Assembly: GCA_015680635.1 (NCBI GenBank)
Contig: JAABOA010000135.1
Location: forward strand, 1 to 22,686
Direction of reading: 5' to 3'
DNA: 22,686 bases
From: Lunasporangiospora selenospora
Lineage: Eukaryota > Mortierellomycota > Mortierellomycetes > Mortierellales > Mortierellaceae
Shown here one piece after another: positions 1,914 through 19,454 of this stretch (positions within the stretch are counted from its first letter, which is position 1; every line of letters begins with the position of its first letter). The position numbers and the translations under genes were made by a program. The notes below the pieces were generated by a model. The model saw nothing but the letters and a program-made list of their open reading frames with translations. It was not told where the DNA came from and searched no databases.

Positions 1914-4900
1914 CTAACCAGAACCCCCAAAGAGTCCTCCCAAGACAAGGGATGAGGTAGAAGCAGGGGCAGACCTTTTCCGGAGGGATGCCACCTCGGC
2001 TGGAGATAGTTGTAGCACTGTCGTGAGAACGGGAAGAAGCTGCTCTCGATCAGTCGATTCGAGGTATTTGAGGACAATGTTCTTGAGATAATCCACATTG
2101 AGATTCTGTCGACGCTCAGCTCGATCGAGACTCCTGATCTCTTCCTTGAGGACCTATGTGATATGAATTTCCAAGGGAAAAGAAATTGGCCAATCAACTT
2201 TTGCTACGGAGAAAAAGTAAAATGACATTCATGGGGAAAAGGGTCTGAGGGTCTGAAGACGGGGGGGGGGGTGCAATTACCTTTTCTTGATCAAGCAATC
2301 GTTGGTGTCCTGCTTCACTCTCGTTCAAAAGCTCAGTCAGGTGTTGGAGTTTGATCTGGTATTCACGTTCTTTACTGATGTTCAATGCGGATGTTGCCAT
2401 CAATGCAGCCGTCGTTGGTGCCATCGTTGGTGTAGAATTGGTTGAAAGTCCCAAACCAACGCCTGCATCCTGGAAGGGCTGACGCTCAACAAACGGTTTT
2501 GTGGCAAGTAGATCAGATAGTGTTGCTACACATTGGGGGGAAAAAAAGTAAATATGCAATTTAGTCCTTCAGTCTCATAATCGCCTTTTTTCAACGACCA
2601 GTTGAAACATGCAACAACAACAATCCCGTACAATAAACGGGCTGCCTTTCATGGGATAGGGACATTGCCGAGGAAGCTCTCGAAATGGGCGAATCTTGTT
2701 CATAGGCCGAGAATGAAGTCCGTGGAGCAAGAGTGGTAGTTGTGACAGAGAGCTGTGAAGGTCCCTTGTAATCCTGCTCATTGTTCGGCGATGCCATAGC
2801 CTTGCTACCAACCGAGCCTTCCGAGTGGGCTTCAGAACCGCTAACAAGGTCACGTAACGTTTGAATCTCTTGCTTGGCCGCCGCAAGCTCATCACCGGTT
2901 CGGTCCAGAATTCTATGAAGCTCTGTATTCTCCTCTTCTTTTTTCGCCAGTCGGTCCTCGATACCCTTCGTGGTCCCGCCTAACTCTTGCCTCAGACTCT
3001 GTGATTCAGCTTCCCGCAACTCTTGTAAAGAAGCGAATCGAGATTCAGCAGATTGACGCTCCTGCTGGGCCTCCTTAAGCGATCGCTCAAGATCGCTCTG
3101 TCGCCGACTCTGTTGTCTCTCTTGTCGGTGAGAGATTTCAATTGTTGACTCGAGACGCGCGATCTGATCCAGTGCCAGCTGAAGTTCGCTCTCTACAGAC
3201 GATCTCTTGGACTCGGTCTCTTGAAGTTCCTTAGTGATGGACCTGATTTTATTAACAAGAGTTCTTTTGTTAGTCACTTTTGATACGAGCAGTATATCAT
3301 AGGTCAGAAAGTTCAAAAGGAAAGGACAGTCTACCTGTTTTCGCTCGCGATCGAGTCCAGATGTGTCTGAAGTTCCCTAATTTTGCTATCATCACTCGTC
3401 TCACCGGCCTCCTGTTGCTGCTGTAATAATAAGCTCGCGCGTTGCTTATATTGCTGGTATTCTTGGCGAAGTTTTTCTAGTTGTGCATGACTTTGCCTGT
3501 ATTTACTCTCCTAGAGAAATGAAGAAGTAAAAGTCCAAGGCTGGATTTAATCTCTTGATCTCGACTGTCTTGCCTTTTCACACTGGTGAGACGGTTGTGA
3601 CTTACCATCTGTCCTAGTTTGGATGCAGCCAGATCTGATTGATTCTTTAGGTCCGCTTCCAGGTCCTGAATGATTTCTAACCACCATGCATGTAACCAAA
3701 AAATGAACAATGAGCTGTTGTCAATAAACAAGGTGGTGTTTTACCCTGGCCCTCAGTCATGGCTCTCTCACTAAAATAAGACTTACGAGCTTGTTCCTCT
3801 GATTGCCCCAAGGTCGGTGCCTCTGCAGTTGGTTGATTCTCCAATTTTGCTTTGAGTTCCTCAATCTCTGTATCCTTTGTGGCGATTGACTGACGATACT
3901 CGTTCAAGTTTTTGTTGGCCGCTGCGAAAATAGCCTTCATCTTCTTCATCTTCTCATCATGTTCTGCTTTCTGCTTTCCAAGTTCTGTTGTCCTTTGCTC
4001 AAGCGATTTTTCCATCTCCCGAGACTCTTCTGTCTTGACAGCGAGTGACTGGGCCAATTCTTCAACTTTACTCTGGAGTATCGTGACCTCGGTACTCCAG
4101 TATTCCTCAGACAATTGCGTAAGTCCCTTGCTATCCGATGCTTCGGCTGTGGTGGATGTATCTTTGGACAAATCCTTGACTCCCTGATCTGTATTTTGTT
4201 CCTGTTTCGGGGAGAGGGTTACTCCTAGGGGATCAACAGAGTCATTCTCAGGCACCGAATCGATATCTTTGTTTTCTGAACCCTTCGCCTTTGGTGACAA
4301 CGCCTCATCCATGGTCTTTTCTTCATGGGTTCCCTTCATTGACTTGATCATTGCGCGTGCCTCCTGTAGCTCCTCGTTGAGTGATTCATTCTCGGTCCGG
4401 AGCCGATCTGCGTCCTTGGCAAACTACATTGCAGCAGCGGAATGAAGCAATCATTGCTTAGTTGCTGATGGCTGGTTATCAGATATCCCATTAAGAAATA
4501 ATATCAAAACTTCTAGGCTTTTGCTTTGAGAGCGATCTGGGCCAGTACCTCTACATTCTCATGGGCTGCTTTCTGGAGAAGCTTTTGACAGTTCTCAATC
4601 TCACTGTTGGCCTCATCTAATTGGGCTGCTAACTGGGCGTTGGTAGAGAAAGGGCTAAGAATTGGTTGGACAAAAAGTAAAAACAATCATGTTAGCTTGG
4701 TGGGATCGATCGTTGCACAGTATTTATCACAGTTCTACTTGCCTTGAACCGCCAGCGCCAGCGGCTCGAGCAGTCGGGTTCCTGTTGGGCTATGTGAGGT
4801 GAATGAGAGGCTGTCGGTAAGAGACCAGAGAGGCTAAAAAACCATGTCATTGCAGATGAGAAGAGAGCAGTCAGAATGCAATTCTCAATATTGGCATGCC

Positions 4901-6658: not shown

Positions 6659-8686
6659 ATGGGCGCACAACGCAGCGACACAAGGGAAAAAACCATCCCA
6701 CTCCTGCTCGAATACACCAGTGAGCAAGAGGAGCGGCTCCGGCAAGAGGTTTTGTATTCTCCACCCTCCAGGACACTACAGTGGTGTATCGCTCCACTTG
6801 TCTTCCTCGCTACCATGGTAAGTGACTCTGGGAGAAGAAATACAATAAAAATAAGGGAACAGGATAATGAAGGAAGATATGCCTGGACAATCTGCTGCAG
6901 GTGTGGAACGAGAATCTGCGAGTGTCACTAAGAGACTAGTCTTAACCTGATGGGCAGCACCGGTTCCAGACACTTTGGCTGCTCTCGTGCTCTCGCTCTC
7001 TCATATCTCATTCTCTCATTCACACAGACCGTAGAGCGCTTTGACGCTCTGGCGCTACTCTTTACCCCATCCCTGTCCTCTCTCCTTGACTTACTCGATC
7101 GAGCGAGTACATTGTGATTGAACAAAAAGGGACCAGACCCAGTCCTTGTGTGCGCCCCCTTGTTGGAGACCCGCTCCTGTGAGAGAACGAGAGCAAAAAA
7201 ACTCCCTTTTTCTTACCTGTAGAGTAGGCCACCTTGCACTAGCTTGTCTTTCCTTCTCCTTTGTCATGTTCCTTTGTTCTTCTCTTCCGTTATTCTCCCA
7301 ACTACTTGCCACCTGAGTAATTCGCTTCTCTACCTTCGCCATTTTGCTGACTATAGCATTCTTCTCATTTCAGTCCTCATTCCGATGGCATGTGTGTTAC
7401 ATTCTGCGCTCTGCACTCTCGCACTCTGTGCCTGTTGTTTAAGATACTAACCATCGTCAAACACGGTCATTGCAATATACTCTAGGTGCCTGCATCTGTA
7501 CTGTTAGTCTACATCCTACAAGCGCAGAATCGACACTCGACTGTGGCAACGATACACCATGGAGTCACCTTAATTCCAACGTTATCCGTCGGAGTTGACA
7601 TAATGGGAATTGGAGTCGTCCTAGTGTCGCTCGTAGGTCTTTTTGGAGTCGCCAAAGGCTGCACACGGCTGATGAATTTGGTAAGCAATCCAAACTCGAC
7701 TGACAAACCAGATATTCATTACTTTGGGCAAGAGAAAGAAAATATATATTAACGATGGTCGTCTTTTTCTAGTACTTTGTGATTGTGCTGTGCTTTATCA
7801 TCATCCAGGTTGGTTCCGCCATCTCAGGATTCATGTCAGGATCGTCGTGGATCTATGATGCTCTGGAACAATCATGGGATCGGGCGTATCAGAAAGACAA
7901 GTCTTTGATCCATGATTTACAACTGGAGGTAAAGAGACAAATCTAGTCGATTTTGTATAAAGAGGCGCTTCACTGTGGCATTGGATGGAATACTTGGGCA
8001 ACGGCTCTAATTTTTTCGACACGACTATGAATTCATCTAGTTCAGCTGCCGTGGATTCCATTCAGCAGAGGACAGGGCAGTGCACATTTCAGAGGATATG
8101 GACATGCCTCTTCCAGCTTGTGGACAAGTCTTGCTCTTGCGTTTTGGAAAACGACTTCAGCGCCTTGGTCTTCTTATCTTTTGCATCCGACTGATTCAGG
8201 TAATAGCAGACACAGAAGTTTTACAGAACTTTCCTTGTCTATGCACTATGGGATGCATTCACTGATCAACCAATCCGTGGTATATAATTTATCTAGCTTA
8301 CGGGCGTATTCCTGCTCTCGATCCTTTTCAAGCATTTGGCTTCCACAGTTCAATCAGAAGAAGGCGAGGAAAACGAAGCGGATGAGGAGTCTCCATACTT
8401 CCCGAGTGAAAAGCTGCTTGAGGAGGAAAGCGCACGTATACCACTCCTGTCTATGGAAGACTATGACCTGCCACACTATTCGGTCCATGACGAGCCTGTT
8501 GGGGATGAGAATGATGACGACGACGACGACGACGACGAGAATGACGATGGACATAGAGCTAGCTGCACAGGTGTGGTGTGGGGAGCAAGGAGCTGTCATA
8601 CCCATTTTGACAATCATGACTATTCCTACTATGGCCTGCCAGAGTATGCAGAGGACGAACGAGAGACACAGGTCTATGTTGCTTGA
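6659..8686 (+). CDS. Tetraspanin-like four-helix membrane protein with acidic tail
   Basis: Five exons, all joined in phase 0, give 352 residues: 6659-6817, 7486-7680, 7773-7928, 8041-8199, 8297-8686. The ATG sits in a strong context (ccgccATGG). Four membrane helices fall at about residues 42-64, 88-108, 119-141 and 211-235. The loop between helices 3 and 4 is about 70 residues and holds Cys-Arg-Gly-Phe at 173-176 and a later Pro-Ala-Cys-Gly (Cys197), resembling the tetraspanin large extracellular loop, which usually has Cys-Cys-Gly. The TM2 region with GLFGVAKGCTRLMNLYF and the small loop between TM2 and TM3 fit tetraspanins. Tetraspanins organise plasma-membrane microdomains. The long cytosolic tail (residues 236-352) is strongly acidic, with eight consecutive Asp at about 296-303, encoded by GAC/GAT repeats. 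Intron 1 is 668 nt and splits TM1. Other four-TM families are possible alternatives. Confidence 0.75.
8513..8541 (+). repeat. GAC/GAT trinucleotide run encoding poly-Asp
   Basis: A near-perfect GAC/GAT triplet run codes for the Asp stretch in the tail of the tetraspanin-like protein. Length polymorphism is likely because triplet runs slip. Confidence 0.8.
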
Positions 8687-8818
8687 TACCTCTTCTCATT
8701 GAAATAATAAAAAAAATTAAAAATTAAAGCCTCTCTGAGCCATTTTTTGGACTCTTTTCTCTTTCTCTCTTTGCTTCATCCAACATTCGACTCTCCACTC
8801 CAGCATGAAGGCGACAAC
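8687..8818 (+). promoter_or_regulatory. Very short spacer: poly(A) signal and RING gene promoter
   Basis: Only 132 bp separate the tetraspanin-like stop codon from the RING gene start. An AATAAA at 8706-8711, in an A-rich run, is a plausible cleavage signal for the upstream gene. The remainder (about 8750-8800) is C/T-rich like other leaders here. The two transcripts may overlap or the genes may share read-through. Confidence 0.5.
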
Positions 8819-8822
8819 ATGA
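8805..8822 (+). promoter_or_regulatory. Five-codon upstream ORF overlapping the RING start codon
   Basis: An ATG at 8805 opens a five-codon frame that ends in TGA at 8820-8822. That stop overlaps the main ATG at 8819 as ATGA. If included in the leader, it could reduce initiation or depend on reinitiation. Its transcription is assumed, not shown. Confidence 0.4.
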
Positions 8823-10537
8823 CCTCTCTCGTGGTCCCTTATTGCTTCTGTCAAAAGCCTGCCGTAGAGCTCTCAACGCAAGATTTTGGAATTGTCTTTG
8901 AGTGTTATAATACCCATTATGGTCCTGACGGCCAGAGCAAAGGATCTGCATCCCATCTTCAAGCAAACAATGAGCGTCTGCGCCAGGACACATCTCAATC
9001 AGGACAACAAAGGGAAGATATCCACCCCACTATTGGATCCGCTGACATTACCAACATGAACTCCTCAGCGATGGCAACACAAAACTCCTCAGATGCCAAC
9101 GGATTGGGCCAAAAAAAGCAACCCTCTCATCAAAGCAATTACAATGCCTGGCTGTCATTTCGCCCGCCCAAACCATCAGACCATGTCTCCCCTATCCACG
9201 AAGAAATTCGTCATTCTGGCCAAAGGCCACCACCCATAACACACAAGGGCAAAGAAGAGAGACGGATATGTGGATTCCATATGCATTCGCGCGACTGGAT
9301 CAAGTTTATTAATCTCATATGGAACCCAGAGCTAGCAAGGACAACTGACTCGATTCTAGCTGCGACAAGCGATGAAGGATTCGGGTTGGGAGTTTGGGAA
9401 CAATCGCGACTTTTAGCTGAACGGCACCAGGATATTGTCCGAAAACACCCATCTGTTTATTTGTCGATCATACTCCTCGCCAACGCCTGTCAGTGCCGCG
9501 CCCAACTAGCCTCTGTTGCACGTTGGCTTGAGTTAGAATCTGTCCTCGAGTTCCCAGAACTCATAGGAAAACCTCCACGCTGCTTCTGTGGCAAAGACAT
9601 GGTGCTTCGCTCAGCTTACCATGACCTAAAGCCAACGACAGTTTACGCCTGTGCAGACAGTCGCCTCGGTGGTTGCTCAAGAGTCTTGGAAGCCAGAACA
9701 CTGAGGCTTCTACCACCTTCTGAATCCCTGCATACTCTAGCCGATTTTGCTTCTCAGAAGCACACTGCTCCAGAACAAGATAAGGGAAAGGGGCCTTGGG
9801 ATCCCAGTAGCTATCTGTCACACGATGGGAATGAACGAAACCCCCCTACACCCTGCTTTGGAGATAGGAAAGCAATGGCCGGAGCATCTTCGTCCAGATC
9901 CGAAAGCGACTATGATGATAGTCATCCAGAAGATCCTGTAGATGGACGAGAGGGCGCACATTCAGCCAATTCAGCAAAATCCTCAGAGGATGACCTCGTA
10001 TCAGAGCAGTTGAAAGTGACGCCAAATGCTGCTTTGCCATTGCCTCCAGGCTTGATTCGAGTCAACGAACGAGTAGTACGAGCAGCAGTAACTCGAAATA
10101 CGTTGCTGGATAAAAGGGAGGAAGATTCAATGCAGAATACATTGCAACATAATGGACATGGTTCAGGATCAGAGGCGCATGACATAGCTCCGGTTCGGGA
10201 GCACCCGATGACACAGCTAGCAGCGGAGCTGGATCAATTTAACAGGGGTGTGATCCCACGACGAAGAGCCGTTGAGGCCCAAATTCAGGAGCTGGAGGGG
10301 CGTCTGGCTGTTTGGCAAGAGTCGGCCGAGCGACTAGAAAAGTATGCAACGGAGCTTCAGGAGTGTGGATTCGATAATCCCAAGTTGACATGCCGCGCGT
10401 GTAAAACCGGGACTTTGGCGCATGCAATCGTTCCTTGTTATCATCTGGTGATGTGCGATGCCTGCCTAAAGACTCATCGACTGTGTATTGTATGCAAGGC
10501 GCCGATTCAACAGCTCCAACGCGTATTTTGGGGGTAG
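8819..10537 (+). CDS. RING-finger protein with two GRF-like cysteine modules
   Basis: Single exon, 572 residues from the first in-frame ATG. The C-terminus is a complete C3HC4 RING: Cys525, Cys528, Cys540, His542, Cys546, Cys549, Cys556 and Cys559, with spacing C-x2-C-x11-C-x-H-x3-C-x2-C-x6-C-x2-C. This compact C-terminal form resembles the RINGs of IAP- and MIB-type E3 ubiquitin ligases, so E3 activity is inferred. A coiled coil (about residues 463-515) precedes it and may mediate dimerisation. Two CxC modules lie upstream: Cys9/Cys11/Cys29 with a distant CGFHMHSRDW (Cys151), and Cys255/Cys257/Cys278/Cys286. Both look like GRF-type zinc ribbons, which bind single-stranded DNA in other proteins; the first would be split by a roughly 120-residue polar insertion. 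The middle part (about 315-460) is acidic and Ser-rich. No targeting signal is seen. Fold assignment of the CxC modules is tentative; the RING is certain. Confidence 0.85.
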   Translation: MTSLVVPYCFCQKPAVELSTQDFGIVFECYNTHYGPDGQSKGSASHLQANNERLRQDTSQSGQQREDIHPTIGSADITNMNSSAMATQNSSDANGLGQKKQPSHQSNYNAWLSFRPPKPSDHVSPIHEEIRHSGQRPPPITHKGKEERRICGFHMHSRDWIKFINLIWNPELARTTDSILAATSDEGFGLGVWEQSRLLAERHQDIVRKHPSVYLSIILLANACQCRAQLASVARWLELESVLEFPELIGKPPRCFCGKDMVLRSAYHDLKPTTVYACADSRLGGCSRVLEARTLRLLPPSESLHTLADFASQKHTAPEQDKGKGPWDPSSYLSHDGNERNPPTPCFGDRKAMAGASSSRSESDYDDSHPEDPVDGREGAHSANSAKSSEDDLVSEQLKVTPNAALPLPPGLIRVNERVVRAAVTRNTLLDKREEDSMQNTLQHNGHGSGSEAHDIAPVREHPMTQLAAELDQFNRGVIPRRRAVEAQIQELEGRLAVWQESAERLEKYATELQECGFDNPKLTCRACKTGTLAHAIVPCYHLVMCDACLKTHRLCIVCKAPIQQLQRVFWG

Positions 10538-12308: not shown

Positions 12309-15300
12309 ATGGCTGGGATCTACAACCACCGACCAATGGTGCCTGGACGCAGTTCAGGTGTTGTCGAGTGGCTCGACCTTATCAAGCAGGAGTTCGACAG
12401 CCTGCACCACGAAATTGCTGTGACAAAGAGTCAGCGCGACGAGTGCGAGCACAAAAGTATGCATTATTTAAGCGTCCCAAAGTTACATCTCCTCTCTCTT
12501 CCTCTCTGCCAAGTCTAGGCCGTTTTAACGATCTACATTAACTTCGTGCTGATTTTCTCCGCTATGGTGTTCGTTACTATCATCATTAATGTGTTTCTTT
12601 TGGGGTTTTAGTCAGTAGCCAAATTCAGGAGATGGAGGCTTTCAAGCGTGCCCTGTATGACCTGGAAGGGAAACACGAGTCCATGAGAGTGCAGTACCAG
12701 GCGTAAGGATGCAGCATAGCGACTTTTTTTTTTATATATTTTATCGTGGTTTCGAGTGAATCGCCTAGCCAGCACATTGAGTATACAAACTAACGCCATC
12801 TATCCCGACCCTGTTTGTCTCTTCTATTTCTTCGCTCGCTTACTCATTGATAATGAGATATTAGATGGGAAGAGGAGATCGTGCGTCTTCGACGGGAGGT
12901 TGAGCAAAGAGGAGGGGTTGTTCAACCACCACATCAGCCCGCACACAACCAGCCGCCTCCACCCAACATTGGCCATGGTCAGTCGAATCTCTTTGGTGGA
13001 ATCATCAGCGGGGGAGCTGGCGGTTCTGGATTGATTGCACCTCCACAGATGAGTGACACTTCACAACAGCCGCCCCAGTCATCTCAACAGTCATCACAGA
13101 CCCACCCGCAGCAGTCCCAACAGCAGCAGCAGCAACAGCAGCAACAACAACAACAGCAGCAGCATATGCAAGGTCCTCCTCCTCAAAAGCATCACCAACA
13201 CCCATCGTCACAGCCTCACCCCTACGGTGGGCCCAATAGCTCCCAGGCTCCTCACTCTCCCTATATGAATGGGGGCAATGGAATGCCGCCACAGCAGGGC
13301 CAGCCTCAGCCAAAGCGGTTCAAAATGGAGAGCGATGGTGCTCGATACAATGCCGAAGGTGACATTCCTCCTCCAGGGGGCCCAGGAAATATGTACGGAA
13401 ACATGTCCCCTAACCCCCATGCCAACGCCAGCGGTCAAGGACAAATGCCACCAGGAATGGGTCCTCCTTATCACTCACCTGCGCCACCCCCAAGTGCTTC
13501 CAAACAGCCCGTCAAGGCAGGAAAGGTATGGATATGTGTTTATCTAGATGAAAGACTGTGGAGAGAGAGAGAGAAAGAGAATGCTCTATGGATGTCGTTT
13601 ATATTCATAATTCACTGAGACTCTATCGCTTATTTGGTATGAAAGGGATCCACTGTCCAGGTCAAGGAAGAAGCTCAGGCATCCCCTGGTAGTAACAAGC
13701 GCAAGGGCGGTGCCGTAGCAACCACTCCAACTCCTAGCAATCGCTACCCACGCTCTGGAAACTGGAGCGAAGATGTTGACAATGTCCCAGCCCAGCTGAA
13801 GAGAGAGGGCCCCGATTGGTTTGCAATGTAGGTCACTGCACAACAGGTTGACTGGACTCGGTTTTTGATGGAAAGAGTGGATAGACCGCACTAACACAGC
13901 CTGCGATTTACTATCCTTCCGATCCCACATCACGTTCTCTCTCTCTTGCTCCCCCTTTTTAGCACAAACCCCAAAGTACCCCAGCTCCTTAAAGTTGATC
14001 TTGTACACACGATGGAGCACTCAAGGTATCGGCTGCTTCAGATTGCAGTATCACTGGTAGTCCACAAAGTATCCACTGATCCTAATCCTCTCTTAAACTC
14101 TACATCCCATATTATTTAAATAGCGTCGTCTGTTGTGTCAGGTTCAGTGGTGATGGCAAGTACCTTGCGACTGGATGCAACCGTAGTGCCCAGATCTACA
14201 ACATTCAAACAGGGCAGAGCGTTTGGTAAGCCACTGCCTGACAAGATCTGAAAGAAGATGGCATCTAGAATAGCTACGGAAGAGAGTATCATTTATGGAA
14301 AGTGCTAACTCTCCATCTCCTTGGTATATTTGTATGTGTGTTTGCCCATTCAAGTATCCTTGCGGACGAGAATGCAGGAAAAGATGATCTCTATATTCGG
14401 TCGGTATGCTTCAGCCCCGATGGCAAATACTTGGCCACTGGCGCTGAGGACAAGCAGATTAGGGTAAGGGCAATAGAGTTCGCCGTTTGGTTGCCGCTAC
14501 GCACGCATTTTCGTCATTTTCTTGGACAATTTTTAAACTGACTCGACGACGTACTTGTCAAACATCAAGATCTGGGATATTGCACACAAGAGGATTCAGC
14601 TGATTCTCAAGGGTCATGAGCAGGATATTTATTCGCTGGATTTCTCCAGGGACGGACGCACAATTGTTTCCGGCTCTGGTGACCAAACCGCACGAGTGTG
14701 GGACGTGGAATCTGGTATCTGTCGTTACGTACTGACAGTTGGAGATGCGGATATGAAGGACGCAGGCGTCACCTCTGTCGCGATCTCGCCGGATGGTCGA
14801 CTGGTAGCTGCGGGATCCCTTGATCGAATGGTACGGGTCTGGGACACCAACACGGGACAGCTCCTTGAAAAGCTTGAGGGCCACAAGGATTCGGTGTATA
14901 GCGTTGCCTTTGCCCCCGATGGCAAATCCCTTGTGTTTTTTTATCAGGTGCCAGGTATCAACGATTCGATCTGACCCATTATTTGATTATTTTCTCCAGG
15001 ACTTTGTCCTTTCCGTAGCCGTTTCTCCTGATGGCAAGTGGGTAGTCTCGGGCTCCAAGGACCGTGGAGTGCAGTTCTGGGACCCAAATACCACCCAAGT
15101 CCAGTTTATGCTACAGGGCCACAAGAACTCTGGTAAGGGCCAAAGTCTCAAATGATGGTTGACTTGAATCGTAGCATTATTCTAGCATCGTCTTACTAAT
15201 ATCTTGGTGCGTCCCTGCTTCGTCTTCAATAGTTATTTCTGTTGCATTGAGTCCAGCTGGCAAATATTTTGCAACTGGCTCGGGTGATACGAGGGCAAGA

Positions 15301-15330
15301 GTCTGGAGTTACGAGTCATTGCAAGATTAG
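12309..15330 (+). CDS. tup1: Tup1 general transcriptional corepressor (WD40), blade 5 incomplete
   Basis: Ten exons: 12309-12456, 12612-12702, 12865-13525, 13646-13827, 13963-14025, 14124-14225, 14355-14463, 14570-14947, 15000-15132, 15233-15330. They join in frame to 654 residues. The N-terminus ([10 protein letters not shown], then [17 protein letters not shown] and [19 protein letters not shown]) is the Tup1 tetramerisation/Ssn6-binding helix. Exon 3 encodes a Gln/Pro/His-rich linker with a poly-Gln run. The Tup1 signature just before the propeller ([18 protein letters not shown]) is present, followed by WD repeats ending QIYNI, IRIWDI, ARVWDV, VRVWDT, VQFWDP and ARVWSYES. Tup1 is a nuclear corepressor recruited by DNA-binding proteins together with Ssn6/Cyc8. 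Oddity: after [18 protein letters not shown] the sequence goes almost directly to [14 protein letters not shown], so the closing strands of blade 5 are missing. The intron there (14948-14999, 52 nt) is far shorter than the others (98-162 nt). An alternative donor at 14933 drops five more codons. Identity is certain; the exon 8/9 junction is not. Confidence 0.95.
13109..13165 (+). repeat. CAG/CAA run encoding poly-Gln in TUP1
   Basis: A mixed CAG/CAA tract encodes about 15 consecutive glutamines in the linker between the Tup1 N-terminal helix and the WD propeller. Poly-Gln in this position is common in fungal Tup1 and is likely length-variable. Confidence 0.85.
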
Positions 15331-16023: not shown

Positions 16024-16728
16024 ATGGCAGACCACGACATGAGCGACAGCAGTCGTATCTTAGCAAGCATTAGTAACGGAACCGGGTCCTCGTCTGTCCT
16101 CGCCACAGTCGCTAGTACGCTTGCAGGACCTGGAGTCGCTGGAGCAGAGGTCCTGAAGTCGCAGCCTCATACCGTCATGACGTCAGATGCCATACCCACC
16201 ACGATCGCGCAACCACAACCGCAACCACAGGGTCCAGTGTTTGCACACCCTCAGCAACAGGTGCCGACCCAGGCACAAATCTTGCAACAACATCAACAGC
16301 AACATCCATCGCTAGGCGGACAAGGATCACCCGTCACAATGACTACTTCGAGTGGAAGCAGCAGTGTCACGGTTGACTCGGCAGATGCAAGAGTAACGGG
16401 ATCGGGCATAACAACTCAACTGCCAGAGGGAACAATTGCTCTGAATGGCGAAGCTGTGTCAAAGCTACCAACCGCAGGACCATTTGGTCTTCATATTGGA
16501 TCTCTTACAAGTATTCCTACTACGACCAGTCAGTTGCTTCAGCAACAACAACAGCATCAGCAACAGCAAGTGGTTCATCAAGCCCAAACGAGTTCTCAGT
16601 CTCCAGCTCATCAACCACCGCCACCGCCACCACAATTACTGTTAATTCATCATCACCATCAACAACAAGAACATGAGCAACAACAACAGCACCAACAGCA
16701 GCAACAACAACAGCAACAACAACAGCAG

Positions 16729-16760
<32 letters not shown>

Positions 16761-19454
16761 CCAACATCAGCAACAGGAATTGGAGCAACAACGGCAGCTA
16801 AAGGAGCTCCAAGAACAGGAACAGCGTAGACTCCAACAATCCCAGGTTGCCGTGCCAGATCGGAGAACGATTGTTGACACTGAGGAGATTCTTGTTCCTA
16901 ATCAAGAGCAAGAATTTGATACACTTGAGGATGCGCAGCATGCGGCAGAGCGGTATGCTCGGAGCGTGAATACGGTTGTCATTGTCAAGCGTACCACAAA
17001 GGACAAACATGGCAATGTTGTTCAGGTAAGACCCCAGAGTTTCCTGGGGCTCGGTGACTATTGTATTACCTCCAGCATTGCTTTATCGGCCAAGTGTCTA
17101 ACTCGGGATTATTCTTCATACTACAGAAAGATCTTGCTTGCGAGAGACAGGGCGCGTACCTCGGCACAGCCAAAAAGACTCTGGATGCCAATGGAAACCC
17201 TGTTGCGAATGCAGGACTAAATGCCAATGCCAATACTAATATCCGAACAAAGAGATGTGGTTGTCCCTGGATGATTTCTGTGGGCTTTTCAAAGAAGCGA
17301 GGAAACCGTGACGGAAAACGGGGTCGATTCACCAAAGTCAACCTTGAGCATAATCACCCAGTCAATCCCTTACCCGAGTCGGATGCCCCCGCGCCTTCCA
17401 AGGCAACGATCAAAGAGGCCAAGCCTGGCAGAGGCACAAAAAGTTCTGGGACCGCCTCCAGCTCGCGCAGTCAATCAGGGCGGTCTCGAGGATCTGCAAC
17501 AGCAACGTCTGCAAATGATGCTCGGATGGGAACAGGCGCCTCGGGCAAGAATGCCACAGTTCGGGCCATTACAGATTACGACATGAGTGAATTTATGCCT
17601 CAAGGACCAATATTGCCGAGCGGCCGTAGTTCTGCGATGCCAGTTCAGATCTCTGCCATCCAGGCCTCGCACAGTTCCATGGAGTCGTTGCCAAGTGATG
17701 TGATCTCGGTACTAGGTGGAAGTCACCGGCCCATGCAGAACATGGTGCGGTCAGAGGTGACATGGGATGACCTAAAGAGTCAGTTGAGTCATATACCTTG
17801 GAATCTTCAGCAGGAGGTGATGAAGACGTTCATGGAGGTTCTACATTACACCATGAGGACCTTTCAGGTTCCTATCATTGGTGACGATCGACGCGCAGAT
17901 GCTGAAGCCGAAGCAGCAGCGACCGTTGCAGCGATTGCAGACGTGGTTGGAAGTCTTCCGTCCAACTTTAACCCACAGGCCTCTCAGGCCCAGCAGGCCC
18001 AGCATGCGCTGCAACATTCGCATCAACATCCCCAGCAGCATCCCCAGGCTCTTTCTCAAGCGCCTCCGCAGAATCAACAACAGCCCCATGCACACCCACA
18101 ATCCTCCATGCCATCGGTCCCTCCGACGGTACAGCAACATTCACAGCAGGATTCCCATGTTCAGCAGTTTAGTCGGGCGCATTCCATCACGGCTACACCT
18201 AATGTTATTCCTACTTCAATGGAGGGCATTAGTCATGACCTGACGGGGTCTACCCCCGCCTCTGACCTATTGCAATTGCATCGGACAGATGCAGCCGAAC
18301 TCTCAGCTGCTCTCAAAGATAAAGGTCATAGTCGCCAGGGCTCCCATGTTGTCATTCACGCGAGCAGCAGCGATCCCCCAAGTAGTACAGTGCCTGGCAC
18401 GCCTACTTCTGTCCAGGTACCTACGGCAATTGCGTCTGCAATAGCCACTTTGGCAACGAGTACAACCGCGACCTACACGCCAACATCGACATCCACCCCC
18501 CATTCGGTCTCTTTGAACGCATCACCGCTCGTGACACCTCTGCCAGCTTTTCGCAATGCGACGGTGACCCATGTACCGTCCTTGGAGGGGACACATACGC
18601 AGCACCAAACGAGTCTACTTCATCATAGTCGACAAGCTAGCCAATCAGGACCTGGTCATCATAGATCCTTGAGTGCGTCGAGCGTCGGAGCTGCAACTGG
18701 AGTTGGTACACCGATCCAGGCGTTGGATTCAGACGGCAACTTGATCAGCACGGCCCATGCACATGTACAGAACAATGGGCCTGGTGATAGTTCCAGTCTT
18801 CAATCCTCACCACTTTTGTCTCAACAAGCTATGGTAGATGCGGCATCGCGAGCGCGAGCACAAGTACAGGCACAGGTGCAGGCACAAGTACAGGCACAGG
18901 TGCAGGCACAGGTACAAGCACAGGCACAAGCTCAAGCACAGGCACAGGCGCAAGCGCAAGCACAATTCCAGCAGGCCCAGATCAACGCAGACCCCGAAGC
19001 GGCTGTCACAGCAGCACTTAAGTTGGCAAATCTGCCAGGACCAAACCCGTTAACCAGCGCCATGTCCAGTGCCGCCAACAATTCTCCCGATCAATCGGTC
19101 ACTCCGTTGGCTTCGACCCAATCACCCATTGCCATTGATTTGTTGGATGAGGCGGTCCGGATGCATGCACTTTCACCAAGCTTTACTCAGCACCTCCAGC
19201 AATTGCAGGAGCAGCAGCAGCAACAGCAGAGAGTACATATCCTACAGCATTCGCCAACACCAGCACCGTCCCAGCCGACTGTTGTTCAGGTTCACGGAGG
19301 TGGTGGTGGCGGTGGCGGTGGTGGAGAGGGAGGGGTTGGAGGAGTTGGAGTGGGTATTAACTCTATGGAAGTTACTCATGGTCATGATACAGAGGATATC
19401 AAAGAAGAGAACGAAGGAGAACCATCGAAAAAGAGAATGAAGACGGATCCATAA
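16024..19454 (+). CDS. Gln-rich protein with FAR1/WRKY-GCM1-like DNA-binding domain
   Basis: Two exons, 16024-17025 and 17127-19454, joined in phase 0, give 1109 residues. The intron (101 nt, GTAAGA...CTACAG) interrupts the DNA-binding domain. That domain spans about residues 299-415: a start like FDTLEDAQHAAERYA, a basic VIVKRTTKDKHG strand, then Cys339, Cys378/Cys380 in TKRCGCPW, and HNHPV (His409, His411). This order of Cys...Cys...His-x-His is the FAR1 zinc finger of the WRKY-GCM1 superfamily, found in Mutator-type transposases and in transcription factors derived from them. No transposase catalytic domain follows. Instead the flanks are low complexity: poly-Gln (about 217-250), Ser/Thr/Gln-rich regions, a long Gln-Ala/Gln-Val repeat (about 905-955), a poly-Gly run, and a C-terminal basic cluster KKRMK (1102-1106) that may be a nuclear signal. 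A transcription factor is the likely role; targets are unknown. Confidence 0.8.
16675..16773 (+). repeat. CAA/CAG run encoding long poly-Gln
   Basis: Almost uninterrupted CAA and CAG codons with a few CAC/CAT (His) form the longest poly-Gln tract of the window, about 30 residues, in the N-terminal half of the FAR1-domain protein. Confidence 0.9.
18850..18975 (+). repeat. Tandem GTACAGGCACAG-type minisatellite (Gln-Ala/Gln-Val repeat)
   Basis: About twenty 6-nt units (CAGGCA, CAGGTA, CAGGTG, CAAGCA variants) encode alternating QV and QA dipeptides. The first part shows a higher-order 12-nt period, VQAQ, and the second drifts to pure QA. The in-frame 6-nt unit lets the array expand or contract without frameshift. 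Confidence 0.9.
19298..19326 (+). repeat. GGT/GGC run encoding poly-Gly
   Basis: A run of GGT/GGC codons gives about nine consecutive glycines near the C-terminus of the FAR1-domain protein, likely a flexible linker. Confidence 0.8.

Follow-up and report, generated by a model that had tools for sequence, protein, structure and literature searches.

The TUP1 gene of Lunasporangiospora selenospora, as it stands in the window analysed here (a stretch of 22,686 bases), raises the question of whether the protein lacks most of one blade of its WD40 propeller, and whether such a loss belongs to the organism or to the assembly. The gene was modelled as follows.

12309-15330, plus strand: TUP1, whole gene, ten exons
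12309..12456, plus strand: exon 1, which by itself carries the Tup_N N-terminal helix (Pfam PF08581, 34.8 bits, cut-off 28.7)
12612-12702, 12865-13525, 13646-13827, 13963-14025, 14124-14225 and 14355-14463, plus strand: exons 2-7, clean frame, aligned to relatives
14570..14932 (or to 14947), plus strand: exon 8, covering strand 2c through the opening residues of strand 5b, with the C-terminal residues ...APDGKSL
14933..14999, plus strand: residual interval between exons 8 and 9, 67 nt (52 nt if exon 8 ends at 14947)
15000..15132, plus strand: exon 9, running through blade 6 (strand 6a onward) into the beginning of blade 7
15233..15330, plus strand: exon 10, blade 7 and stop

The joined exons form a frame of 649 residues that is open throughout, and the predicted protein aligns with Tup1 from both relatives and yeast. 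Eight introns measure 98-162 nt, each starting with GTA. The odd interval before exon 9, given in the preliminary description as 52 nt (14948-14999) or 67 nt (from 14933), was recovered in both forms, with exon 9 starting at 15000.

On the phylogenetic tree the window protein groups with Tup1 of Mortierellaceae (24 rows, 23 from named Mortierellaceae plus P0020; support 100/99 against an outgroup of 5 rows), while its position inside this group is poorly supported. Its terminal branch is 0.089, compared with a median of 0.06. Tup1 of Mortierella alpina (P0006) and Podila horticola (P0017) have the same N-terminus and propeller as the window protein, with the difference that their blade 5 is complete; identity to P0006 in the propeller is 90% over 310 columns outside the gap.

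At 120 columns outside the gap where the other 26 rows do not vary, the window protein shows a single change, and the best-kept relatives show 0 to 2 such changes. Three C-terminally broken models (P0024, P0029 and P0034) had been set aside before this count. Two of them, from Mortierella (P0029 and P0034), stop or go wrong directly after GHKNS, at the point that matches the boundary between exons 9 and 10 in the window, and annotation probably missed their last exon. Further copies listed under Mortierellaceae carry 12 changes at 131 columns (P0081), 7 at 126 (P0030) and 6 at 125 (P0033), and this loss of 6-12 otherwise invariant propeller positions points to constraint that was relaxed or shifted once the gene had been duplicated. 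The non-Mortierellaceae rows P0040 (7/126) and P0061 (8/127) reach similar figures by distance alone. Judged by these columns, the window TUP1 is as constrained as its best-kept relatives, unlike the diverged extra copies. With a joined frame that is otherwise open, it shows neither the relaxed constraint nor the further lesions of a decaying pseudogene.

Against this background a single segment stands out. The window protein is without the 31-41 residues that all 29 aligned relatives, taken from the best 120 of 5852 matches, keep between KSL and DFVLS, so that the preliminary description was right that some 40 residues are absent from the propeller, and the comparison with TUP1 of relatives that it had called for sets the window apart from all of them. 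In the relatives this segment reads, for example, VSGSLDRTLKSWDL...CKATFNGHK; none of these residues occurs in the window protein in the 30-row alignment. For a wider count, 122 of 125 retrieved proteins (P0121-P0123 were left out) were compared with the Podila protein P0019, and those aligning with it over 250 positions or more at 58% identity or higher were treated as Tup1-like, a rule that 91 passed and 31 failed. In all 91, P0019 included, the stretch between these landmarks counts 31-68 residues. When M. alpina Tup1 was compared with the genome contigs, matches ran exon by exon over residues 310-434 and 471-516 and skipped 435-470. On the evidence of these alignments, the absence of the segment from the predicted protein is genuine and not a chance effect.

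The nature of the join can be read from the residues that should precede it. GHK lies immediately N-terminal to DFVLS and is invariant in 30 relatives; the original exon therefore ended in GHK, and the simplest reading of all 67 nt is the remaining 3' end of a single intron. Within them we take CTGAC (14971-14975) for a branch-like site and ctccag, ending at 14999, for the acceptor, both picked by eye. The preliminary description had proposed the 3' end of an intron butted against a second donor, with 'gtgccag|gtatcaa' as the old exon end. Since GTGCCAG cannot encode GHK, which is expected before the intron, this proposal is replaced by a single intron remainder. The simplest account is that a single contiguous stretch of about 125-220 bp is missing at about 14933-14936, and with it the last part of exon 8, its donor and the beginning of the intron that follows. 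The size was estimated from 31-41 codons plus about 31-95 nt of lost intron; the earlier suggestion that the end of the exon is missing together with some of the intron is thus upheld, at a size near the one then estimated.

In order to see what the loss would do to the propeller, the structural model of P0019 was used (mean pLDDT 83.7, with 294 of 430 residues at 90 or above). Its strands lie at 301-306 (5a), 312-317 (5b), 321-326 (5c), 346-351 (5d) and 357-362 (6a), and the residues missing from the window protein correspond to 314-354. On this model the window protein would retain strand 5a and two residues of 5b, and would lack the greater part of 5b together with the whole of 5c and 5d, so that the complete seven-bladed WD40 propeller is not encoded as assembled. 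The S. cerevisiae Tup1 propeller, described as seven-bladed in a passage of PMC2882346, is like the window protein in aligning over the same blades (PDB 1erj); the match of 1erj to the window protein is interrupted at residue 573, on the edge of the gap, whereas its match to P0019 forms one stretch. The preliminary description had spoken of a six-bladed Tup1. The loss amounts to 41 residues against a 5a-to-6a spacing of 56 (strand starts 301 and 357), and is therefore out of register: whole repeats have not been removed, strand 5a is orphaned and no neat six-bladed ring results.

The frame is kept across the interval only through two poor GTG donors. Donors were scored with a matrix drawn from the remaining eight introns of the gene, few in number, each being left out in turn for its own score. 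The in-frame GTG donors at 14933 and 14948 score -2.8 and -2.9, compared with 1.9 to 10.5 for the other eight. Splicing at either would give a full-length protein ending in YESLQD. A GT at 14955 scores 4.0 and is out of frame, leading to a stop about ten codons into exon 9; a GT at 14896 within exon 8 (3.1) is likewise out of frame, and reading through the interval meets a stop inside it. Frame keeping is no sign of function, since among 24 comparable cases made with the tails of the other eight introns, 12 contain a frame-compatible GT, counted regardless of stops. As assembled, the locus is not expected to yield a working Tup1.

The remainder of the window offers some points of context. Downstream of TUP1, at 16024-19454, lie long coding frames rich in Q and S, with glutamine runs and an AQAQ repeat, in which a Pfam search gave no match at E 0.001. 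On the minus strand, at 2194-4423, there are coiled-coil-like frames; one of those tested against Pfam reaches TMF_DNA_bd and Lebercilin only below threshold, and another has no match. A neighbouring frame of 572 residues (8819-10534) matches the L. selenospora protein BGW38_001151 (P0121, 810 aa; about 8297-10537 in the window) at 100% identity from end to end of the frame. This protein has a tetraspanin-like N-terminal part (PF00335, 30.7 bits, slightly under its cut-off of 32.1) and a C-terminal RING (PF13920, 28.9 bits against a cut-off of 27), and may represent two genes merged by annotation or a real fusion.

What remains is an ordinary, constrained TUP1 with a single lesion in a draft fungal assembly, and of the explanations weighed an assembly artefact ranks first, a recent real loss second, and a functional variant is remote. 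The cause is probably assembly, not biology: a piece of about 125-220 bp is absent from the assembly and most likely present in the organism, either because two contig ends were misjoined or because bases were lost in the making of the record. The artefact is favoured by a well-kept copy with one clean lesion and no working product, by the retention of the segment in every aligned relative and in every Tup1-like protein counted, by the fact that no plausible propeller can be obtained from the locus as read, which is unexpected in a copy so well kept, and by the fragmentary state of the draft record.

The contigs themselves bear on the last point. The set searched comprises 8.2 Mb in 475 contigs, presumably only part of the genome given genome sizes in this group, and the window is contig C115. 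Among the 20 other contigs from C105 to C125, 8 are close to falling size order and 12 are shorter than those neighbours by 13-56%, which suggests that scaffolds were broken at gaps. The public record containing BGW38_001151 has 23,357 bases, 671 more than the window, and this length fits between C114 (23,383) and C118 (23,264). If part of the 671 extra bases belongs at the join, the gap was made in preparing the window. Squeezing out of Ns inside the window was also considered and rejected, because the shortening of 12 of the 20 neighbouring contigs is better fitted by splitting at gaps with pieces dropped. Of 40 stretches taken from the contigs, 17 contain a single run of non-ACGT letters, 100 to 7355 bases long and always reaching one end of the stretch; these runs are probably masking and do not represent scaffold gaps. 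A review (PMC10386755) reports genomes of low and high quality for most genera here, naming Lunasporangiospora, and a revision of the family Mortierellaceae based on low-coverage sequencing.

Several observations weaken the case for an artefact. The window has no Ns and no repeat of misleading size at the join, the longest exact within-window repeat touching 14850-15060 being 14 bp and off the join. The assembly fault that the preliminary description lists among the possibilities stays the leading explanation in general form; its repeat-collapse version is not supported, no fitting repeat having been found within the window. A 76-base probe over the join (14925-15000) occurs once in the genome contigs, in a search that skips simple repeats; an insert from elsewhere at the join was dropped as a candidate on the same result. 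As a measure of gene quality in these contigs, 12 Cpn60/TCP1 and HSP70 loci were examined, of which five (three Cpn60/TCP1 and two HSP70) are covered almost end to end with no internal loss; the other seven gave partial or weak matches and were not judged. A search of the contigs for actin gave no match, and matches to myosin and tRNA synthetases are broken up by introns or divergence.

The unique join, the lack of Ns and the five sound genes also speak for a genuine deletion of recent date, by which the sequenced strain would have had its TUP1 disabled through frameshift or truncation, the loss being survivable or made good by another copy outside these contigs. This explanation keeps appreciable weight, though it is clearly less probable than the assembly artefact. 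Extra copies may exist in the family, as at least two TUP1-like proteins appear among the matches listed for Entomortierella lignicola, Dissophora globulifera, Gryganskiella cystojenkinii and Mortierella alpina, counted per species name and not per genome. In Neurospora, mutants of rco-1, the TUP1 homologue, exist and are described as defective in hyphal fusion (PMC3068686). A literature search combining Mortierella with Tup1 returned nothing on this subject, judged by title. Neither the best 120 of 5852 matches nor the 27 matches of another listing include an L. selenospora Tup1 of 357-1136 aa, although the protein BGW38_001151 of this species is public; public annotators may be without a full L. 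selenospora TUP1 model either, and this does not separate an artefact from a real loss. Against a deletion stand the constraint on the copy, as strong as in the best-kept relatives, and the search for a second full-length TUP1 that the preliminary description had recommended: in the 8.2 Mb of contigs, probably a partial genome, none was found, and outside the locus an M. alpina Tup1 query met only WD40-type matches at 25-54% identity.

That the protein is instead a functional variant, six-bladed or with its blade 5 altered, and spliced by way of the GTG donor at 14933 or 14948, is very unlikely. The full-length product of both donors speaks for it; against it are donor scores below those of all eight other introns, the frequency of frame-compatible GTs by chance, the orphaned strand 5a left by an out-of-register loss, and the absence of any such form among the 91 Tup1-like proteins. 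Propellers of the Sec13/Seh1 type are open and six-bladed, completed by a partner, and the blades that they have are whole. By analogy, the window protein might be likened to them in having fewer than seven blades in the chain, with the difference that half a blade would be left over. Fainter still is the chance that L. selenospora expresses an open, six-and-a-bit-bladed Tup1 by way of the weak GTG donor, in which a partner or a rearranged strand would close the ring and the choice of targets would be altered.

For a displaced segment, the relatives' segments were searched against the window with tblastn, and the best 25 matches were the gene's other WD40 repeats and two weak ones elsewhere (E about 0.004-0.005), none of them a piece moved or inverted nearby. 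In the contigs, a 39-residue query, short and run without a positive control, gave no match, nor did a pattern scan for the exon DNA. The least probable explanation of all is that the missing exon piece has been moved to a different place, by rearrangement or inversion or to a separate contig, and is united with the rest in RNA, given these window matches and the M. alpina query, whose hits outside the locus are of WD40 type only.

If the loss is real, L. selenospora would be a natural experiment on how large a part of the Tup1 propeller is dispensable in a filamentous fungus. More likely the locus is a warning that drafts of early-diverging fungi can drop pieces of exons and so mimic domain loss in a core regulator, and exon pieces lost in this way would mislead surveys of gene loss.
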